From a virus: 32,204 bases of DNA. Position numbers and translations under genes: made by a program. Location: the IMG/VR virus record IMGVR_UViG_3300025118_000079, positions 1-32,204 of that record, one strand, 5' to 3'. A model generated the notes under the pieces. The model was not told the origin of the DNA and made no database searches. It was given only the letters and a program-made list of their open reading frames with translations. Below are positions 4,541 through 32,204 of this stretch, piece by piece (position 1 is the first letter of the stretch; each line of letters starts with the position of its first letter).

Positions 4541-4747
4541 TTAACTTGTAAAATCCATACCGTTTTTTCTTATTTTATCACATATTGTCGGTCCATCAAC
4601 GGACTTTATTACATAAAAATCTTCGGTATTATCTACAACATATTTTATTATGTTGTTTTCTTTAAACCAAGTTTCTGCTCTAGCAGTTATTGGTCGGATT
4701 AAACTAGTGCCATCATTGGCACTAGTATAAGTAAAATCACCAGACAT
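4541..4747 (-). CDS. Hypothetical 68-aa protein
   Basis: The product starts MSGDFTYTSANDG and has no signal or membrane segment. An open frame extends 13 codons further upstream, but the ATG at 4747 shares one base with the preceding gene's stop (TAATG), as at many junctions here, so this is the preferred start. The body reads as a mix of strands and helices with ENNIIKYVVDNTEDFYVIKS and a C-terminal GPTICDKIRKNGMDFTS. The family is not recognised. Its stop is followed by the promoter of the next transcript, so it seems to be the last gene of the upstream unit. Confidence 0.62.
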   Translation of the reverse strand: MSGDFTYTSANDGTSLIRPITARAETWFKENNIIKYVVDNTEDFYVIKSVDGPTICDKIRKNGMDFTS

Positions 4748-4956
4748 TATTGTATCCTTACAAATAATGCTTTGATTTGTTTCCAATTGTTGAGTAATTG
4801 CTTTTTGCCATCAGCCCAACCTCTTTTCTGAAATTCTATTGTCTTTTGTTTCTCAATAGAAAACCAGTTTGTTATAGCGTCTGCTGTACTTTTAGCATCC
4901 GCATTAGCTGCACTTGTAAATAATACAAGAGCAAGCATTGGTAATAGTTTTTTCAT
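4747..4956 (-). CDS. 69-aa exported protein
   Basis: A textbook signal peptide (MKKLLPMLALVLFTSAANA, cleavage expected after residue 19) precedes about 50 mature residues that are Lys/Trp-rich and probably helical (TADAITNWFSIEKQKTIEFQ and beyond). The mature protein should be periplasmic. It is small, basic and amphipathic, so it could act on the membrane or cell wall, but I recognise no family. It lies one base after the membrane protein at 4958-5122 and overlaps the following ATG by one base. Confidence 0.72.
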   Translation of the reverse strand: MKKLLPMLALVLFTSAANADAKSTADAITNWFSIEKQKTIEFQKRGWADGKKQLLNNWKQIKALFVRIQ

Positions 4957-4957
4957 A

Positions 4958-5122
4958 CTATTTTCCTCCCTTATCTTTTATCTTTTTTATCATACTATCA
5001 CAAATATCCATCATTTTTTTAGTGTGGTATTTCATTGATATTATAATTTCTTTTGAATCGCCAATTGTAGCGATTGCATATCCTAATAATAGGATAATAA
5101 TTACTAATAAAGTCATTTCCAT
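4958..5122 (-). CDS. 54-aa single-span membrane protein
   Basis: The product begins MEMTLLVIIILLLGYAIATI, a membrane segment at about residues 3-20, followed by a basic tail ending KKIKDKGGK. A longer frame starts 12 codons upstream but would overlap the previous gene by 35 bases. The ATG at 5122 starts one base after that gene's stop and has GGAGG about 12 bases upstream. The family is not recognised. It is one of a row of small membrane proteins. Confidence 0.65.
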   Translation of the reverse strand: MEMTLLVIIILLLGYAIATIGDSKEIIISMKYHTKKMMDICDSMIKKIKDKGGK

Positions 5123-6268: not shown

Positions 6269-6774
6269 TAAAATGGTATCCCTTCATCTTTTATAGGTTT
6301 GCTACTATCAACAATTTCTTTCAAATCGCCTAAAGGATCCATTTCTTTTTCTTCTTCTTCTTTTAAAGAAAGTCCTACAGCAACTGCATTATCAACTGCC
6401 GATACAACTTCACCTTTGTCATTAATAACATCGGTTTCTGAAACAAGAGAATCTATTTCAACATCTCCATTTTCAACAGCATTTTCTAAGCCGTCATATT
6501 CATCATATACAACTTTACCAATAAATTCAGTTTTCCCTGAATCTGAATAGTTAGCGTCAACCATATAGGTTTCAACTCCATCTTTCATTTCTGTAAGGTC
6601 TTTATTGATTTTATCATACTCAATTCCACAATCACTTAATTTAGTGTCTGCTTCATCTTTATCTTTTGCCAAAACATCCTGTTCTATGCAAAGTGTATAG
6701 TAAGTTTTCTTTCTATAAAGATTTTTACCTATATCCTCTTTAAATGGATATACATCTGTTTGTTTTATACTCAT
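6268..6774 (-). CDS. Hypothetical acidic 168-aa protein
   Basis: The protein starts MSIKQTDVYPFKEDIGKNLY and has no signal or membrane segment. The first 80 residues look folded. The second half is very acidic and Val/Asp/Glu-rich, with a run of glutamates (EEEEKE), and ends KPIKDEGIPF. The acidity might mimic nucleic acid or bind a basic host protein, but this is speculation. It overlaps the preceding gene by four bases (ATGA) and the next by one base. Confidence 0.65.
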   Translation of the reverse strand: MSIKQTDVYPFKEDIGKNLYRKKTYYTLCIEQDVLAKDKDEADTKLSDCGIEYDKINKDLTEMKDGVETYMVDANYSDSGKTEFIGKVVYDEYDGLENAVENGDVEIDSLVSETDVINDKGEVVSAVDNAVAVGLSLKEEEEKEMDPLGDLKEIVDSSKPIKDEGIPF

Positions 6775-7214
6775 AGCGTTTTTTCTCCTTTTTTATATTT
6801 GTTTGTTAATTCTGTATTATAGTCTTTTTTAAAGAATTGTCTTCCATTAAATAATTGTCCATAGTCATTATATAAACTCATAAAATCATCTTCTTTTGAA
6901 TCTAAATCGTATTCGTCTCCGAAAGTCCAATAATATTCATCTCCGAATACTATTTTTAATTCTGTCTTACCTGTAAAATTTTCACCTTTTTCAACATAAT
7001 TCTTATCAAAATAAGCTTTCATTTCAGGGAATTTAGATTCTAATTTTTTCTTATTAACTAATGATATATTCATATTTCTATAGATAGTAGAATATGAATA
7101 AAAATATGGTTCTGAAACAGATTCGTCATCTGTATATTCTCTTCCATATACAAGATTCATAGTATTTTTAGATTGTTCTTTTAACAATTTCATATCTGAA
7201 TTTTCAATTTTCAT
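6771..7214 (-). CDS. Hypothetical 147-aa protein, first gene after the long gap
   Basis: The frame is open from a TTG at 7268, but the likely start is the ATG at 7214 (MKIENSDMKLLKEQ), because the bases at 7266-7285 belong to the repeated promoter-like element and a transcript starting there would begin near 7264. No strong ribosome site precedes either choice, so the start is uncertain. The protein is rich in Tyr, Asp and Lys with segments KFPEMKAYFDKNY and FGDEYYWTFGDEYDLDSKED, soluble and acidic. The family is not recognised. It heads the long leftward run of coupled genes. Confidence 0.62.
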   Translation of the reverse strand: MKIENSDMKLLKEQSKNTMNLVYGREYTDDESVSEPYFYSYSTIYRNMNISLVNKKKLESKFPEMKAYFDKNYVEKGENFTGKTELKIVFGDEYYWTFGDEYDLDSKEDDFMSLYNDYGQLFNGRQFFKKDYNTELTNKYKKGEKTL

Positions 7215-7501: not shown

Positions 7502-8197
7502 TTATTTCCAGTAGTCTTTAATCCACTCTCCACTCTCATATTTGATAGCATAGTCTGGATTAGGGTGTCCGTGAAACACACATATTTTAGCATCCTTTTT
7601 TCTAGGATGTTCTTTAGGTTTATACTTTTGATATTGTTTGGGTTTACCTCTTGTCGGCCATTTAAAAGAATATGTCCAATCATCTGGTAAGAATTGTGTT
7701 TGTTTATGTCTAAACATTAAATCAGTTATCATATTTTGGTCACCGTGTAAAGCGTCAATCTCTTTTCTATTTTTCATATACGATTCAAATATATGTGAAT
7801 GGTGTTTTAAATTATATCTTAAAACACTCGTATTGATTGTACTAGTAGGTTGACCAAAATCTCTTATAACGCAAAAATCATCTGGTTGGTATTGTTTAAA
7901 AAAATCATCTAAACTATCTATAACAACTACATCTAAATCCATATATAATATATTACCTTCTATGCCTAGTTCAGGATTATATAAATGTACTTTATTCCAC
8001 CAAGTCTTTAATTGAGGTTCTGGTATTTTTATAGTTTTAATTGCTGGATTAAATGGGTCTTCTAAATTATCTGTTAAACAATAGAAATCAAAAGGTATTG
8101 ATATGTTCCTTTTACACATACTATAAAGTGTGTTAGGATACTTTACTTTATATTTGTCTCCCGAATATACACAAATAACATTATTTTTTGGCGTCAT
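7502..8197 (-). CDS. Glycosyltransferase, DxD type (GT8-like)
   Basis: The 231-aa protein has the GT-A pattern: an N-terminal NVICVYSGDKYKVKYPNTL strand-helix, the metal and nucleotide-sugar motif DLD at residues 87-89 (ILYMDLDVVVID), and a late LHGDQNMI segment typical of GT8-type enzymes that use a retaining mechanism. It should transfer a sugar from a nucleotide donor in the cytoplasm. It is the last gene of the glycan cassette; after it comes the long non-coding region. It overlaps the previous gene by 17 bases. The acceptor is unknown. Confidence 0.8.
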   Translation of the reverse strand: MTPKNNVICVYSGDKYKVKYPNTLYSMCKRNISIPFDFYCLTDNLEDPFNPAIKTIKIPEPQLKTWWNKVHLYNPELGIEGNILYMDLDVVVIDSLDDFFKQYQPDDFCVIRDFGQPTSTINTSVLRYNLKHHSHIFESYMKNRKEIDALHGDQNMITDLMFRHKQTQFLPDDWTYSFKWPTRGKPKQYQKYKPKEHPRKKDAKICVFHGHPNPDYAIKYESGEWIKDYWK

Positions 8198-8999
8198 ATT
8201 GTTCCTTTAAGGTTCTATATGCTATACCATTTTCTATTTCTTTTATTGTAAATTGATGTTCAGCCATCCATTTCATCCATTCATCTACAGTTTTTCTTCC
8301 TGGTTTTAAAGGTTTCTCTACAAACTTTAATTCTCTACTTGATACAGGCCAAGCTACATTTTTTGCGTCTGCAATTACAGGTACATAATTTAAAATTGCG
8401 TCAATTGAAGCCAAACTCATATTAGTTACCAAACAATGGCAACCTTTTAAGTCTTCTAAAAGATTTCTATCCCACCATTCATTTCCTGGTCTAGGTTTAT
8501 TTCTTATTTTAATAGGTCTATCTGTATATTTTCTTACTTCTTCACCCACTTGTTTTATCCAATCTTCCTGGGACATACCATTAATATGGAAAGTAACTGT
8601 TGGTGATGATGGACATAACAATATATGATTTGTATTTGTAGTCCAACCATTAAATCTGACATTAATACCTTTATGTTCTAATTCTCTTAATCTAATACCT
8701 TTACCTACTTTACCTTTTATGCTATGAATACCACCTTTAACTATTCTAAAATATGTTTTATCATAATCATGGATTTCAGGTTCTGGATATCTAGTAATTT
8801 GTTGAGTTAAATAACCTACATCAACATACCAGTATTCTTCCTTCTTCTCAATACACTTTCTAATCTCATTAATATTTCTACCTGCTAATCCCCAAAAAAA
8901 ATGTATGTTCTTATCTTCATCTTGCCAACCCTTTTTAATAGCAGGCCATATTTGATGAGATAGACATTTTTGCCAATCCATTGTATGTGTTATAATCAT
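8181..8999 (-). CDS. Glycosyltransferase-like protein (GT-B or capsule type)
   Basis: This 272-aa protein has a C-terminal domain with the order: strand HILLCPSSPTVTF, helix, TDRPIKIRNKPRPG, then LKGCHCLVTNMSLASIDAIL and a final basic segment. This is the pattern of GT-B-type capsule or Kdo-like transferases where the sugar donor binds between domains. It is a clear paralogue of the gene at 16583-17485: both share TDR-(P/K)I--R-K, a (V/I)EKP(L/I)-P-R segment, a QFT-x-x-(E/D) helix and an AYR ending. The left member lacks part of the N-terminal region seen in the other. It overlaps the previous gene by four bases (ATGA). Confidence 0.65.
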   Translation of the reverse strand: MIITHTMDWQKCLSHQIWPAIKKGWQDEDKNIHFFWGLAGRNINEIRKCIEKKEEYWYVDVGYLTQQITRYPEPEIHDYDKTYFRIVKGGIHSIKGKVGKGIRLRELEHKGINVRFNGWTTNTNHILLCPSSPTVTFHINGMSQEDWIKQVGEEVRKYTDRPIKIRNKPRPGNEWWDRNLLEDLKGCHCLVTNMSLASIDAILNYVPVIADAKNVAWPVSSRELKFVEKPLKPGRKTVDEWMKWMAEHQFTIKEIENGIAYRTLKEQYDAKK

Positions 9000-9670
9000 A
9001 AGTCTATTTTAGTTAAATCCTCATATATGTTAAACCATTCATCTGAATAATCACAATCTTTATAATCTTTAAAATATGGACCACCCAAAGTAAAATGAAC
9101 ATTTTTTGCCTCTGGATTATAATCATATTCATCTACTAACCAATTCCACTCTAAAGGTAATGCTCCTATTTGATGGTCATTATGTAACCATTTAAATTGA
9201 TGTAATTCTAAACCACTTTTGGTATTTACATATTCAGGAGTTAATGTTCTACATTGTTTGTTATTAATTAGCATAAAAGATGACCAATTCTTTTTCTCAA
9301 ATGTTTGGTTTACAGCACCTCTAAATTTGATACTTGTTTTTGGTTCGTAATTATGCTGACAACACATTACAGCATATTTTTCTTCAGCTAATTTAAACAC
9401 TTCGTTTATATCATTTCTAACCATCATATCACAATCCATAAATAAAGACCACCCCTTATAATCACTTAAATATGGAACTAAAAATCTGCTAAATGCAAAT
9501 TCTGTAGATTGATTTTTCTGTTTCTGTCTTTGAAATGGAGTATTTCTTAAACCGCTTAAAGCTACTGGTATAATAGATACTGGCTTGCTTGCATATTTTC
9601 TAATACTTTCAGCCAGAACATAATAGGCAATCTTTTCACCTTCATCATATCCAATAAAAACCTTATTCAT
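8996..9670 (-). CDS. Glycosyltransferase with DCD motif
   Basis: The 224-aa protein starts [20 protein letters not shown], has the motif DCD at residues 79-81 ([14 protein letters not shown]), then [31 protein letters not shown] and [16 protein letters not shown]. This is a GT-A protein of the GT8-like kind found in marine phages and bacteria. It is a paralogue of the gene at 18172-18990, with the same motifs in the same order. The recipient sugar is unknown. It overlaps the groES gene by eight bases and the next gene by four. Confidence 0.82.
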
Positions 9671-27005: not shown

Positions 27006-27476
27006 TTAACCGAAGTGTTTAAATATTGCCTCAAAATTGCCAGATAACACCAGCCCTGCTATAATACAACCCCCTAAAATCAAGTATCTCCATCTCTCTA
27101 ATACACCTACTCGTTCAGCAAATCCATTTTTCATTGACCTAATTTCTATCATTAATTTTTGCTCTGTTAAATATAATAATTCTTTAAATTCTTTTGATGT
27201 AGTATTAATTCTACTATGTACTTCCTTTATATTATCGTCTGTTTCAGCTCGCCTATTTTCAACTAAATCATATAAATTTTTATCAGCTACTTCTTGTTTA
27301 ATAATTCTTTCTTCGTGTACAGCCAACATTTGTTTAATACTTGTTGAAACATCTGTAAGCTTTTCAATAGCATTATCAATTCTACTATGTATATCTCTAG
27401 CATTCTTTACATCTTTTTTTAAAGAAGCAATATCTACTTTTAATTCTGTTTGATTACTTTCTGGCATTGATGGCAT
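27006..27476 (-). CDS. Coiled-coil protein with C-terminal membrane anchor
   Basis: The 156-aa protein is helical over about 125 residues (KVDIASLKKDVKNARDIHSR and on), rich in heptads, and ends with one membrane segment (about residues 130-147, WRYLILGGCIIAGLVLSG). Very similar proteins, beginning with a MPxxPESNxTEL-type opening, occur in T4-like marine phages. The soluble part probably faces the cytoplasm. Its role is unknown. It is the last gene after the curli-like cluster and is separated from the primase by that gene's own promoter. Confidence 0.75.
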   Translation of the reverse strand: MPSMPESNQTELKVDIASLKKDVKNARDIHSRIDNAIEKLTDVSTSIKQMLAVHEERIIKQEVADKNLYDLVENRRAETDDNIKEVHSRINTTSKEFKELLYLTEQKLMIEIRSMKNGFAERVGVLERWRYLILGGCIIAGLVLSGNFEAIFKHFG

Positions 27477-27484
27477 ATCTTATC

Positions 27485-29635
27485 TTAATCCGTTTGTATA
27501 ATTGTTATATTTTGTTGGCTGGAACTACTGCCAATATCAAAGTGTTGAGCTTCTGTATCTTGTATAATTTGAACATCTGCCTCATCAGCAGTTTCAATTT
27601 TTAGATATGCCCTATGACTATCATTATATCTATTTATAATTGAGTACCCACTAACAGATGTATCAATATCAACATCAAATTCATTATTTAATGTTGACGC
27701 TCTTCCTGTTGAAGTGGTACTTGTAGATACTCCATCAACTGTTGTAGTTAAAGTTTGAGTAATATCTCCTGTAGTATAATTTAAAATTTCTCCACTAGCA
27801 GTTACCGTTGTTTCAGAACCACTATTGTCAACCCATTCGGTACCACAACTAGAATTAGCATTGTTCCAATAGTAACCATAGTATTCACAATCCCACTCAT
27901 TATCTACGGTTGCTAACCATTGCGTTAATTCTGAATCTTGGTCATAATCATCCTCATAACCATATTCTTCTTCCAATGTTGTAGAATCATCTCCTGAATC
28001 GTCATATGTTCCTGTATAGTACCAACTAGATGTATTGTCATAAAATTTACCCCAATCTTCATTGGTCCATTCGGAAACATATTTGTCTTTTAATCCTTCC
28101 ATCTTCCAAGGTTTAGGTTGTCCAGAACACCACTCTGGATTATCCCAAGTACCACACCAACCATACCATTTTTTAAATAATTTTCTAGCATCTTTTTCCC
28201 AACTAGTATAATCTTTAAACAATGACCAGTCATCTTTGTACCATTCATTTAAGTAATCTAAATATGGTTGGTCACACCAAGAACCCCAACCATTATAATC
28301 ACAGAAATTTTCCATTGTTAAAGTTGGTGGTCCACCAGCAGCAATATAATCTGCATTACCATAATAGGTTGATGGTGTGTTTATATCAAAATCATCCCAA
28401 TCATATCCAACAAATGTTGATGTAGCTTCATCTTCAACCTCATCGGTTATATCATCCTCTTTTACTTCTACATTGTAAGAAGTTAATCCATATTTTTCTA
28501 AAGCAGCATTATAATCATCATAATAAGCATCCCAATCAACCTCTTCCCAATCAACCTCGTCCCAATTAATTGTGTCCCAAGTACAATCTGAACAACCAAT
28601 GGCGTCAAAGTATGCTTGGTCCATTTCTGAATACATCTGTTTAGCGTCATCCCAATCCATAGTCTTTTCACCTTCAGCATCCCATACTGATACTTGATTG
28701 TCTTCGTCAATATATCCCCAATCTTTTAAATCGTCTTCCCATTCATCATAATAGGAAGTATCAACATCCGATTCTACATTTGCTTGGTCTACTGCGGTTT
28801 CTTCTACTGATTTTGAATCTAATATTGTTTCTGTTCCAGAAGTACCTAAATCGGAAGTAGCGTCATATGTTTCTGCTGTTTCTGTAATTGTAACCTCTTC
28901 AGAAATAATAGCTTCTTCCATCTTCTGGATTTCTTCCTGCATTACTTCATTATTTTCTGCTCTATCAAATTGTTGGTCGTGCTTTTCTTTTATATCATCA
29001 TCAATACTATCAATATCAAACAAATTCTTTTTCTGGATTCTATTTAATGCCGATGGAGTTTTAATCATAATATCAGAACCAACTACGGTTACGGAAGTAT
29101 ATACATTGGTTAATGTTTGAGAACCTGCCTCATTGGTTACGGTTACTTGTCCTACATCACCAGAACTATCTGGTAATAATGTGATTGTTGTTTGACCTGA
29201 ACTATCTACTGTACCTGAAAAAGCAGTACCTTGCATAGTTATAGTTGCTGTTGGTGTAACTAATTCAACCTCACCACCTAAAGTAGATACCTGTCCTGAC
29301 TCGTATGTAAATGTACCAACATTAACTGATATGTTCATAGCAATTTCTATTGGTATAACAGAAGTATCAAAAGCAAATTCATCAATAATTAATTCTGTAT
29401 TCGGACCCATTGTAAATTTAGTATCATCTTTATAATGTAAAATCATACCACCATCTTCTCCTGTTTGGAGAAAGTCGTTCATTTCTAAAAGATAACCTTT
29501 AATTACTGTTTCAGTTTGTCCATCTCTTTCGTTCCAAGTTTGACCCATTTTATCTGCAACTGAACCAATGGTTACAGCAAGCGCACTAGTACAAAAAAGT
29601 ACCAGAAAGGATACTAAAAATAATAACTTTCTCAT
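27485..29635 (-). CDS. Exported FecR-domain protein with Trp/Asp-rich region
   Basis: The 716-aa product (start at the ATG MRKLLFLVSF; an upstream GTG is also open) has a signal peptide ending at about residue 20. A FecR-type domain follows at about 32-187, seen as DFLQTGEDGGMILHYKDDTK, GTFTYESGQ and TPTATITMQGTAFSG. Next comes a helical acidic region, then about 300 residues rich in Trp, Asp, Tyr and Gly with several Cys pairs, including tandem units WDTIN-WDEVD-WEEVD-WDAYY. The last 60 residues (AYLKIETADEADVQIIQD, then QQNITIIQTD) resemble curlin-type strands. It is probably a surface or fibre protein exported with the CsgG/CsgF pair encoded upstream. Confidence 0.78.
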   Translation of the reverse strand: MRKLLFLVSFLVLFCTSALAVTIGSVADKMGQTWNERDGQTETVIKGYLLEMNDFLQTGEDGGMILHYKDDTKFTMGPNTELIIDEFAFDTSVIPIEIAMNISVNVGTFTYESGQVSTLGGEVELVTPTATITMQGTAFSGTVDSSGQTTITLLPDSSGDVGQVTVTNEAGSQTLTNVYTSVTVVGSDIMIKTPSALNRIQKKNLFDIDSIDDDIKEKHDQQFDRAENNEVMQEEIQKMEEAIISEEVTITETAETYDATSDLGTSGTETILDSKSVEETAVDQANVESDVDTSYYDEWEDDLKDWGYIDEDNQVSVWDAEGEKTMDWDDAKQMYSEMDQAYFDAIGCSDCTWDTINWDEVDWEEVDWDAYYDDYNAALEKYGLTSYNVEVKEDDITDEVEDEATSTFVGYDWDDFDINTPSTYYGNADYIAAGGPPTLTMENFCDYNGWGSWCDQPYLDYLNEWYKDDWSLFKDYTSWEKDARKLFKKWYGWCGTWDNPEWCSGQPKPWKMEGLKDKYVSEWTNEDWGKFYDNTSSWYYTGTYDDSGDDSTTLEEEYGYEDDYDQDSELTQWLATVDNEWDCEYYGYYWNNANSSCGTEWVDNSGSETTVTASGEILNYTTGDITQTLTTTVDGVSTSTTSTGRASTLNNEFDVDIDTSVSGYSIINRYNDSHRAYLKIETADEADVQIIQDTEAQHFDIGSSSSQQNITIIQTD
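28530..28589 (-). repeat. Tandem 15-bp repeat inside the FecR-domain gene
   Basis: About four 15-base units start TCCCAA on the plus strand at 28530, 28545, 28560 and 28575; the first two differ at one base. On the minus strand each codes for a five-residue unit of the form W-(D/E)-x-(V/I)-(D/N). It marks local slippage or duplication in a Trp/Asp-rich segment. Confidence 0.75.
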
Positions 29636-29637
29636 TT

Positions 29638-30726
29638 TTAACACCCGCCAGTTATCGTATTAGTATAATCTGCTGTTTGATTGTTTCTGTTATATGAATA
29701 ATTACAACTATCATTACCGTCTTGATTCACGTGTAAAGTATAGTCGTATATTGAATCACCTGATACATAAAGGTAAGCATAGTTGTCATCATTAAGTTGT
29801 TTAAGATTAACATTTGCGTCATCTGTATAAAGATAAACATATGCTTTATTGTCATCACCATTTGCATAGTAAGTAAATGTATTATCGTTTCCACTTGTAA
29901 CCGTTTTCAACCAATTGTCATCACCTCTTTGTATCATCCTTACGTGGCTGCTTGTACAACAGGAATGAACATCTAAAATATTTGAATTACCTATGACATC
30001 ATGGACCATATAATTGCTTTCGCCCCAAATTCCTGCGTGGACAGTATTAGAATTTCCTACAATGTAAAAATCTATTGTTGCACCTTCATCACCTGAATCA
30101 TCTGCAAAGACACCGTGAGAAGCAACATCAGGACCTATCATTACATTTGCTTTAGATGAACCAACCATACCTTTTGATTCTGCTTTGTTACTATAAAACT
30201 CAACATCATTAGAATCTCCACTAATCAACACATATAAGAAGTGTGAATCACCGTGGCTATTCATCCAAAAATCATTTGAGTCTCCTACTATATCTAAATC
30301 AACATGGGTGTCCTGTACATCATCACTTGTATTTGTATCTATTTCTACTATGTTTGAACCACCTGTAATATCAATATCATAATAGTGTCCATCTGCACCT
30401 ACATCATCTAAATCTAATCTTAATACATTAGAATTACCTGTTGCTAAGTAATCAAAGGTCATATTAGAACCCATAAATGCCCTATGGTTACTATCAGTTG
30501 CAATATTACTATTACCTATTTGTTTTATGATAAGTGTAAGATTATCTCCATTGATTAAAAATGGATATGATGTACTTATACCAAAAGAATTGCTTGCACC
30601 GTCCTGTTTTATATAGACAGAACCATCTGCGTCTTGGTTAACTTGCCATATATAAATTGAATTTCCTGCCCAACAGCTAATCGTTGTTGTTAGAAGAATC
30701 ACCAGAGTCATTATTAGTTTCTTCAT
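29638..30726 (-). CDS. Exported curlin-like repeat protein
   Basis: The 362-aa protein has a signal peptide (MKKLIMTLVILLTTTISCWA, cleavage near residue 20). The rest is built of repeating strands with G-(N/D)-(S/D)-N turns about every 20-25 residues (TGNSNVLRL, VGDSNDFW, SGDSNDVEF, VGNSNTVHA, IGNSNILDV, SGNDNTFTY, NGDDNKAYV). Near the ends are curlin-like phrases such as IYIWQVNQDADGSVYIKQDG and IIKQIGNSNIA. This fits the beta-solenoid of CsgA/CsgB-type amyloid subunits, but it is longer and richer in Asp. It lies just after csgG, whose end it overlaps by 50 bases. It is probably the cargo of the CsgG channel. Confidence 0.8.
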   Translation of the reverse strand: MKKLIMTLVILLTTTISCWAGNSIYIWQVNQDADGSVYIKQDGASNSFGISTSYPFLINGDNLTLIIKQIGNSNIATDSNHRAFMGSNMTFDYLATGNSNVLRLDLDDVGADGHYYDIDITGGSNIVEIDTNTSDDVQDTHVDLDIVGDSNDFWMNSHGDSHFLYVLISGDSNDVEFYSNKAESKGMVGSSKANVMIGPDVASHGVFADDSGDEGATIDFYIVGNSNTVHAGIWGESNYMVHDVIGNSNILDVHSCCTSSHVRMIQRGDDNWLKTVTSGNDNTFTYYANGDDNKAYVYLYTDDANVNLKQLNDDNYAYLYVSGDSIYDYTLHVNQDGNDSCNYSYNRNNQTADYTNTITGGC

Positions 30727-31780
30727 TTGTGTTCTCCTCTACTTCTGCGTCCTTATCTACGTCTGCCCAATCTTTTTCATCAATTAATTCTGTACACTCT
30801 TTAGATACTTTACCTTGTGGATTAGGGTTTTTATCACAAGCTATTTTTATTTGTATTAATTTTTTTCGTTCTTCTTTTTTAGCTTCTTTTTCTGCTAAAT
30901 AATCTTCGTATGTTTTCTCTACATTAGGCTCTTGTTGTTCTATAACTACATTAACCTTTTCTTCTGTAATAACTTCTGCGTCTGATTCTTCAACAACTAC
31001 TGGTTCAGGTGGTAGTTTAATTTTCCATAAACCTTTTTCATCACCTTCTTTTATTAATTCTACTATACCTTTTTCTATTGCTTTTCTTACTGCATAGGTA
31101 ACTGGTTCGTTTCTTGCTGTACCAACTTCTGTTTCTAATAACATTGTATCAGCGTCAAAATATTTAAATACATCTCCACCAGTTTCACCTGAAAATATAG
31201 TTTTCTCAACCACTATTGATAATATTACTTCACCACTTTGTACATTAACTAATCTTAAAATAATAGTAACTATATCTTGTCGGTATTGTTTATGTGCTTG
31301 AATACCTAAAATTCTTGCACCAATACCACCTGACTTTACATCACTATCATAACCTATAATACCACCTGTAAGATATGCACCTGCAAATAATAATGGTGGT
31401 AAAGGTTCTGCTTTATCTCCATCAACTTGTTGTCTTGTGGAACGAATTAATTTTCTTTCTTGTAATAAACTTGGGAGACTTGCTCTCTCAACAACTCTAA
31501 ACCAACTACCATCACCTGCGTCTTGTAATGCTTTAATTAATATTTGATATGCACCTTGGGTTACTGCCGTACTCATTGTAGCATAATTGCCACCAGGTTT
31601 CTTTTGACCTGTCATATCAATAAAATCATACACAGCAATTATAATAGATTCACCTACAGGTGCTTCTATTGTAGTTAAAGTTTTAACTACTGGTACTTGT
31701 TTTCTAACATCAAAGTCTGGTTTACCTGCACAACTAACTAGCAATAATGTTAGTAAAAAAACTGCTATACTTTTAAACAT
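30677..31780 (-). CDS. csgG: CsgG-like outer-membrane curli secretion channel
   Basis: The 367-aa product is a lipoprotein (lipobox LVSC, lipidated Cys17). Its CsgG region has APVGESIIIAVYDFIDMTGQ, WFRVVERASLPSLLQERKLI, GGIIGYDSDVKSGGIGARIL and QYRQDIVTIILRLVNVQSGE, closely following E. coli CsgG. CsgG forms a nine-fold ring channel for curli subunits. The narrow-loop segment is KPGGNYATMSTAV where E. coli has KPYPASNFSTAV, so the constriction residues differ. After about residue 255 there is a 110-residue Glu/Lys/Asn-rich extension that E. coli CsgG lacks; its last codons overlap the next gene by 50 bases. The ATG shares one base with the csgF stop. Confidence 0.95.
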   Translation of the reverse strand: MFKSIAVFLLTLLLVSCAGKPDFDVRKQVPVVKTLTTIEAPVGESIIIAVYDFIDMTGQKKPGGNYATMSTAVTQGAYQILIKALQDAGDGSWFRVVERASLPSLLQERKLIRSTRQQVDGDKAEPLPPLLFAGAYLTGGIIGYDSDVKSGGIGARILGIQAHKQYRQDIVTIILRLVNVQSGEVILSIVVEKTIFSGETGGDVFKYFDADTMLLETEVGTARNEPVTYAVRKAIEKGIVELIKEGDEKGLWKIKLPPEPVVVEESDAEVITEEKVNVVIEQQEPNVEKTYEDYLAEKEAKKEERKKLIQIKIACDKNPNPQGKVSKECTELIDEKDWADVDKDAEVEENTNEETNNDSGDSSNNND

Positions 31781-32204
31781 TATGAATTATCTTCCTTAGG
31801 TAAAGTATATGTTGTCACGGTGCCATCTGTTTCTGTGACAACTACGGTAACGGTATCTGGTGACTCACCAGATGTTGTTGTCCAAGTTATTACTTCACCA
31901 CCAATTGGTGATGTAAATGTACCAGAGTCTTGTTGTAGACCATCTGAACCAAATACATTATCAGTAATTTGTTTTGCTAAAGCAGTATAAAATCTTGCTT
32001 CTAAATTTGCTTTAAATTTGTTGACCGCTAGTGCCTTCTTATCTGCTATGACTTTATCAGCCGCAGCTTTTTCAGCAGCTTTTATTGCGTCTTTACGAGT
32101 TTTCTCAATATTCTCTACGGTTAAATAATGTGATGATTTTCCTTCCCCACTAAAGGATGGGCTATCAAAATCAAAAGTTAACTCACTTGCATTTGCGATA
32201 GAAT
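31780..32204 (-). CDS. csgF: CsgF-like curli assembly factor, 5' end beyond window
   Basis: 141 codons are visible; the start and most of the signal peptide lie beyond the right edge. The first residues (SIANASELTFDFDSPSFSGE) match the end of a signal peptide and the N-terminal CsgF segment that plugs the CsgG channel (E. coli TMTFQFRNPNFGG). An Ala/Lys helix not seen in E. coli follows, then FYTALAKQITDNVFG, corresponding to the CsgF helix, and a C-terminal strand region VITWTTTSGESPDTVTVVVT ending with TYTLP. CsgF couples the channel to nucleation of fibres. It overlaps csgG by one base. Confidence 0.88.
   Translation of the reverse strand, partial: SIANASELTFDFDSPSFSGEGKSSHYLTVENIEKTRKDAIKAAEKAAADKVIADKKALAVNKFKANLEARFYTALAKQITDNVFGSDGLQQDSGTFTSPIGGEVITWTTTSGESPDTVTVVVTETDGTVTTYTLPKEDNS

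Follow-up and report, generated by a model that had tools for sequence, protein, structure and literature searches.

Why should a phage that encodes a curli-type export operon include in it a protein with a FecR domain, and keep an adenylate cyclase gene at its side? The question is raised by a 32.2-kb record of a marine virus (IMG/VR record IMGVR_UViG_3300025118_000079; below, the window means this whole stretch of 32,204 nucleotides), whose minus strand at 27485-32204 holds csgF, csgG, a curlin-repeat gene (CurA) and a gene for a FecR/Trp-Asp (W/D) protein, each overlapping the next. A preliminary description of this DNA, made from its letters alone, had read four adjacent genes of one direction here, and had read them correctly. 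The novelty that it implied has to be withdrawn, since curli systems of pelagimyophages and other phages are in print (PMC7029224; PMC9004378; PMC9599517) and the full set, with CsgA/B cargo, FecR and cyclase, appeared in 2022 (PMC9599517). Within the searches made, the system itself is known and the new element is the curlin-like ending of the FecR protein, so that this protein may belong to the fibre apparatus. The features concerned are as follows.

31780-32204, minus strand: csgF (PF10614), last 140 codons, the 5' end being lost at the window edge
30677-31780, minus strand: csgG (PF03783), outer-membrane lipoprotein channel, 367 amino acids (aa)
30677-30726, minus strand: reading-frame overlap of csgG and CurA, 50 nucleotides (nt)
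29638-30726, minus strand: CurA, predicted exported curlin-repeat protein, 362 aa; predicted beta-solenoid and probable fibre subunit
27485-29644, minus strand: FecR/W/D protein, predicted exported, 719 aa when read from GTG
FecR/W/D protein, residues about 25-190: FecR domain, preceded by a signal-peptide-like start
FecR/W/D protein, residues about 295-545: helical, W/D-rich region with paired Cys
FecR/W/D protein, C-terminal beta region: ends in a curlin-like repeat at about residues 690-717

The C-terminus of the phage FecR proteins

A strand of the pattern hydrophobic-x-hydrophobic-x-Gln closes all 73 of the 73 distinct phage FecR sequences compared, with 0-3 residues after it. A second strand lies 20-27 residues upstream in 70 of them, at a spacing of 21 or 22 in 64. 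A strict form of the curlin kernel published in PMC10192328, N-x-psi-x-psi-x-Q, falls within the last 12 residues of 59/73, that is, of 54/55 short FecR proteins, such as those of HTVC008M (Pelagibacter; 368 aa) and the Methylophilales phage Melnitz (about 370 aa), and of 5/18 long ones like that of the window; the FecR protein of HTVC008M ends in the same curlin-like strand as the window type. The terminal motif is absent from CsgF (0/69), CsgG (0/79) and the cyclase (0/65; 0/213 together), and it occurs in 6/1038 other proteins of the same loci, five of them curlin-like and one unrelated. These counts were first made with a tolerance of 0-2 trailing residues (20/20 and then 52/53 FecR proteins), which was widened to 0-3 after a single miss in locus L096; the pooled count omits loci L001 and L050. 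A comparable terminal strand ends E. coli CsgB, so that phage FecR proteins, judged by sequence, appear to share with CsgB a C-terminal curlin-type strand in an exported protein. By the title of a 2012 paper, the C-terminal repeats of CsgB reportedly direct nucleation. The second "own putative cargo" protein of the preliminary description can thereby be described more closely, as a FecR protein whose tail is curlin-like; both this tail and the long W/D variant are undescribed in the literature searched (supplements excluded), in which no paper joining a FecR domain with curlin was found.

A strictly terminal motif, present in 73/73 FecR and in 83/114 CurA-class proteins (many of the latter being curlins of HTVC008M-type modules), could alternatively be no amyloid strand but a C-terminal signal by which CsgG/CsgF recognises proteins for export or quality control. 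We consider this quite improbable: the second strand in 70/73 FecR proteins, mostly at curlin spacing, speaks against it, and the window CurA, which ends in Gly-Cys, would lack the signal, as would the window-type CurA proteins generally (no motif in 19/19, loci L002-L047). In the first set, scored with the 0-2 tolerance, 3/23 CurA termini had the motif, all of them from HTVC008M and Melnitz.

What kind of protein carries this tail is indicated by its other end. An N-terminal hydrophobic segment is found in 83/83 distinct complete FecR proteins by a crude hydropathy rule that 293/1025 other open reading frames (ORFs) also pass, and in the alignments the FecR domain follows directly upon it; the window protein is translated from GTG, and many relatives align from a Met three codons further on. 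FecR anti-sigma regulators place a cytoplasmic N-terminal anti-sigma domain before their membrane segment. No such part was found in the phage FecR proteins, nor is there room for one, because the export-type segment abuts the FecR domain. The domain itself (PF04773) is matched in 14/18 family members at E up to 0.1, the window copy not being among them, and the window-type FecR profile matches the short phage FecR proteins at 2.4e-23. In the long FecR proteins six Cys are invariant in 18/18 and two more are kept in 13/18, in close pairs, as would be expected in an oxidising compartment. The AlphaFold2 model places strands at 613-717, a block with a predicted local confidence (pLDDT) of 70-86.

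These features bear on the published reading, in which the FecR protein is named an iron-dependent regulator (PMC9599517), that is, a FecR-type signal protein governing the operon together with the cyclase and having no structural part. It can point to the Pfam FecR domain in relatives and to bacteria in which FecR genes adjoin CHASE2-type cyclase genes (PMC9239204). The sequence argues that the phage FecR is an exported protein and speaks against its being a cytoplasmic iron or sigma regulator: beside the missing space for an anti-sigma part, no Sigma70_r4_2 match, the sign of an extracytoplasmic function sigma partner, exceeded the cut-off in nine records (mostly fragments, which could miss one; two hits were weak and sub-threshold), and the curlin-like tail is missing from 9/9 bacterial homologues examined. 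We therefore regard a purely regulatory FecR as rather improbable.

The bacterial homologues came from a tblastn search of plasmids (nine loci of 31 matched records) and are not independent, two tails being identical and two nearly so. As in the phages, a FecR-domain protein stands beside a CHASE2-type cyclase in Ruegeria, Rhizobium and Sinorhizobium and, in the literature, in Campylobacterota (PMC9239204); a gene matching the phage cyclase profile adjoins the bacterial FecR gene in 7/9 loci, with CHASE2 recognised by Pfam in two. Unlike those of the phage proteins, the bacterial tails are acidic, rich in His or in Lys, or unrelated (curlin-like in 0/9). In Campylobacterota clusters the CHASE2 cyclase is paired with a FecR-domain outer-membrane protein (PMC9239204), and in Sinorhizobium meliloti a FecR-domain protein is among the genes controlled by cyclic AMP (cAMP), one cyclase there having CHASE2 (PMC5498481); together these reports suggest a place for the FecR domain in the pathway of the cyclase. 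A scan of genome contigs with the short FecR returned a single locus, L051, and no bacterial curli-FecR neighbourhood; L051 is a fragment of a phage-like curli module in a Flavobacteriaceae bin, and likely a mis-binned virus.

The pore proteins and the curlin-repeat protein

The CsgF-like and CsgG-like channel parts of the preliminary description are borne out by Pfam, at 3.6e-10 for CsgF against PF10614 (40.6 bits, cut-off 25.8) and at 1e-49 for CsgG against PF03783, which is over threshold. The CsgG family profile finds the E. coli CsgG structures at 1.3e-68, and alignment with E. coli CsgG shows the conserved core to be kept. The CsgF profile found nothing in the PDB at E up to 0.1; overall identity to E. 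coli CsgF is 18%, and the mature N-terminus retains its F-x-x-P-x-F-x-G, with F26, P29, F31 and G33 invariant. In the solved E. coli complex this N-terminal peptide plugs CsgG and lines its lumen (PMC7304575). A second IMG/VR contig, L002, encodes a CsgG identical to the window copy and supplies the full csgF (154 aa, L002 9537-10001). In loci with a long FecR the C-terminal third of CsgG bears a long, variable, charged and hydrophilic extension, absent from the CsgG of HTVC008M, Melnitz and E. coli and partly encoded in the stretch shared with the beginning of CurA; the csgG-CurA overlap measures 47-56 nt across 23 such loci.

That CurA is curlin-like follows from four kinds of evidence, namely profile, repeat statistics, kernel count and structural model. 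At E up to 1 the only PDB sequence found by the CurA profile is E. coli CsgA (8enq), at 6.3e-5 for the whole sequence and at 0.011 and 0.7 for its two stretches taken singly; the Pfam Curlin_rpt family is matched in 4/16 CurA family members (E up to 0.1). With hhalign, CurA matches the first curlin of HTVC008M/Melnitz at 97.8% and aligns weakly with E. coli CsgA/CsgB (69.7%); of these first curlins, that of Melnitz passes Curlin_rpt and its HTVC008M counterpart fails. The protein has 12 GxxN motifs against 3.5 expected, a count reached in 0/20000 shuffles, and the top two lags in its self-match are 11 and 22 residues. The curlin kernel is present, at any position, in 106/114 CurA-class proteins versus 33/1038 other proteins of the same loci (which are shorter on average).

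The AlphaFold2 model of CurA is all-beta (pLDDT 71.9; predicted TM-score, pTM, 0.75), one short strand after another, the turns holding most of the GxxN motifs. The beta-solenoid whose absence would have told against the preliminary description is thus predicted. VIA-align returned many beta-helix rows (best 3p4g, Z 17.9, root-mean-square deviation 2.8, 237 aligned) and no curlin chain among the best 50, which supports a solenoid and nothing more. Taking sequence and model together, CurA is probably a curlin-type subunit, and the exported curlin-repeat protein of the earlier reading stands.

Conservation, late-type promoter motif and cyclase

In L002, just beyond the window, the sequence TATAAATA starts 32 nt before csgF; we take it to be a T4-type late promoter sequence. 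Within 80 nt upstream it was found in 26/32 csgF genes versus 50/493 other genes and 0/103 CsgG, CurA, FecR and cyclase genes. Also outside the window, L002 carries a CHASE2-adenylate cyclase gene on the opposite strand (7847-9487), 49 bp upstream of csgF. Of 46 related csgG loci, 21 have a divergent cyclase immediately upstream of csgF and 11 have one downstream; it was not seen in 14, most of which are cut. Loci L020-L022 have, besides the upstream cyclase, a second cyclase-like gene behind FecR on the opposite strand.

At first gene calling CurA was present, whole or in part, in 28/46 loci; it was also read in L011, L013, L020 and L021, where the ORF filter had removed it for its overlap with csgG, and L012, L014 and L022 have the same 1033-nt gap, which is unread. 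FecR is present, whole or in part, in 31/46 loci, and ten loci end too close behind csgG to show the exported genes. The csgG of L031 is intact, its apparent break being an effect of the ORF filter. A loss of the exported genes in relatives was considered and rejected: the only locus with enough sequence to show csgG without them is L047 (1-4226), where csgG runs in frame into a region that we take to be scaffold- or capsid-like, and which is probably a chimeric assembly. A chance origin of the whole observation is likewise ruled out by the Pfam matches, the repeat shuffles and the conservation.

In eight chosen locus pairs the ratio of nonsynonymous to synonymous change (dN/dS) is below 1 in 38/38 comparisons (0.063-0.608). 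The curli-type secretion operon with two dedicated exported proteins of the preliminary description is upheld, and it is conserved. Divergence differs strongly between the cyclase and the other module genes in L037/L038 (cyclase dN 0.294 vs CsgG 0.003) and in L036/L037, an indication of gene-level recombination within the module. When virus sequences were scanned again, this time with the short FecR, at least 551 stretches encoded relatives of it; among the best 80 loci the full order CsgF-CsgG-CurA-FecR-CurA-cyclase is present in 22, the rest being truncated or varied versions.

The late-type motif before csgF would also suit the role that the authors of Melnitz favour for its curli operon, lysis (PMC9004378). 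In that reading (Buchholz 2022) CsgG-CsgF is a gated outer-membrane pore, or a pinholin analogue, that times the release of virions, with the remaining genes as accessories. Spanin-like genes do lie about 2.6-4.5 kb upstream of csgF in L002, where two Rz-like matches (4605-5075 and 6531-6896; phrog_739 at 2.7e-7 and phrog_812 at 8.6e-8) imply that spanin-type lysis genes are encoded near the operon; by the same token L002 is already provided with such genes. A bare pore, moreover, needs neither CurA nor FecR, and both are conserved, curlin-like and at dN/dS below 1. A lysis role is in our view decidedly improbable.

The HTVC008M match to the window, the best near-identity match among phage records, has 76% nt identity over the ribonucleotide reductase genes and spans 27% of a 12.2-kb query. 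The curli cluster of HTVC008M-type pelagimyophages (PMC7029224; PMC9599517) shares with the window type the order CsgF-CsgG-curlin-FecR and a same-family adenylate cyclase; it differs in having a short FecR, two curlin genes and its cyclase downstream, where in the window type, with its long FecR and W/D domain, no further curlin was found and the cyclase lies divergently upstream. The Melnitz operon (PMC9004378) has the same gene set as the window type, with a short FecR and two curlin genes. Two further observations concern neighbouring or isolated sequences: a 1499-bp phage record, OR851715.1 ("Salmonella phage"), has a csgG match of 42.6% identity and is perhaps host DNA, and between the curli operon and a primase gene the window encodes one more protein:

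27006-27476: coiled-coil protein (DUF7201) bearing a hydrophobic segment at its C-terminal end

A possible fibre machine

From what can be read directly in these genomes (gene set and order, export-type starts, repeats, FecR tail, late-type promoter motif, dN/dS below 1) we propose, with confidence only a little above even, a late, phage-encoded curli exporter that makes a fibre coat, with FecR as a CsgB-like nucleator, anchor or adaptor tied to the CHASE2 cyclase or to the pore. The module would be expressed late in infection; CsgG would form the outer-membrane pore, and CsgF its plug and cap. CurA would pass through the pore unfolded, take up a beta-solenoid fold outside and stack into a fibre of the curli type on the infected cell. 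The curlin-like C-terminal repeat of the exported FecR/W/D protein would pair with CurA, and being able to do so it would act like CsgB, as nucleator or anchor; in E. coli the nucleation of CsgA is the task of CsgB, which also interacts with CsgF on the cell surface (PMC10192328). The FecR domain would engage the CHASE2 sensor of the adjacent adenylate cyclase, and so couple the fibre to cAMP, or else engage the pore. Fibres of this kind would alter the surface of the infected cell, probably favouring aggregation with new hosts or the exclusion of competitors; the preliminary description had offered a coat, cell-cell contact, a block to superinfection and help in release as candidate roles. 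The cultured relatives infect SAR11, which reportedly lacks curli (PMC7029224; PMC9599517).

A number of observations weigh against this proposal. The strict kernel is missing from the window FecR tail, as it is from 13/18 long FecR proteins; the window-type CurA proteins have no terminal motif (0/19), and no CurA has the strict kernel in its last 12 residues (0/114). When 40-residue FecR tails are shuffled, 591/14600, about 4%, still show the terminal motif, and the FecR sequences are related, so that 73 termini are not 73 independent events. Neither the window CurA nor the window FecR has any relevant Pfam match on its own; of the four-protein profile search once suggested for this locus, the CsgF and CsgG parts succeeded, and for these two it is their families that match. 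With neither the CurA nor the FecR model did Foldseek find a PDB entry at E 0.001 or better, and in the FecR model the FecR domain is of low confidence (overall pTM 0.28). The E. coli CsgG constriction residues Tyr66, Asn70 and Phe71 (numbering of PMC7304575) are not conserved, the loop having one residue more, and Melnitz infections showed no clumping (PMC9004378). Unlike E. coli, the phage records searched have no CsgE (PF10627, 0/9; two complete genomes and seven virus contigs that are possibly fragments), in a search that did detect E. coli CsgE. The CsgE periplasmic gate is not universal in curli, or type VIII, secretion.

How a fibre exporter and a FecR-cyclase pair came together may be judged from bacterial operons. 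E. coli csgBAC/csgDEFG shares CsgG, CsgF and curlin repeats with the phage module, and no FecR or CHASE2 cyclase is among the annotated genes of its 4.5-kb stretch. On a plasmid of Azospirillum TSA2s, the sole alphaproteobacterial curli operon viewed, csgF-csgG is followed, much as in the phages, by two curlin-repeat genes, with no FecR or cyclase annotated in 14.8 kb. The simplest history would unite a curli exporter with a FecR-cyclase pair and let FecR acquire its curlin tail. One could go further and imagine a fibre-sensing circuit, built from an alphaproteobacterial-type exporter and the FecR/CHASE2 pair, in which FecR seeds the fibre and reports export or assembly, so that cAMP tracks the amyloid coat; this we hold to be unlikely, and no bacterial description of such a circuit was found in the literature searched.

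Curli modules are present in very many virus contigs. To read FecR as a structural or adaptor protein with a curlin tail is to exchange the published "iron regulator" account for a testable one, which, if true, would explain why FecR and a cyclase travel with fibre genes.

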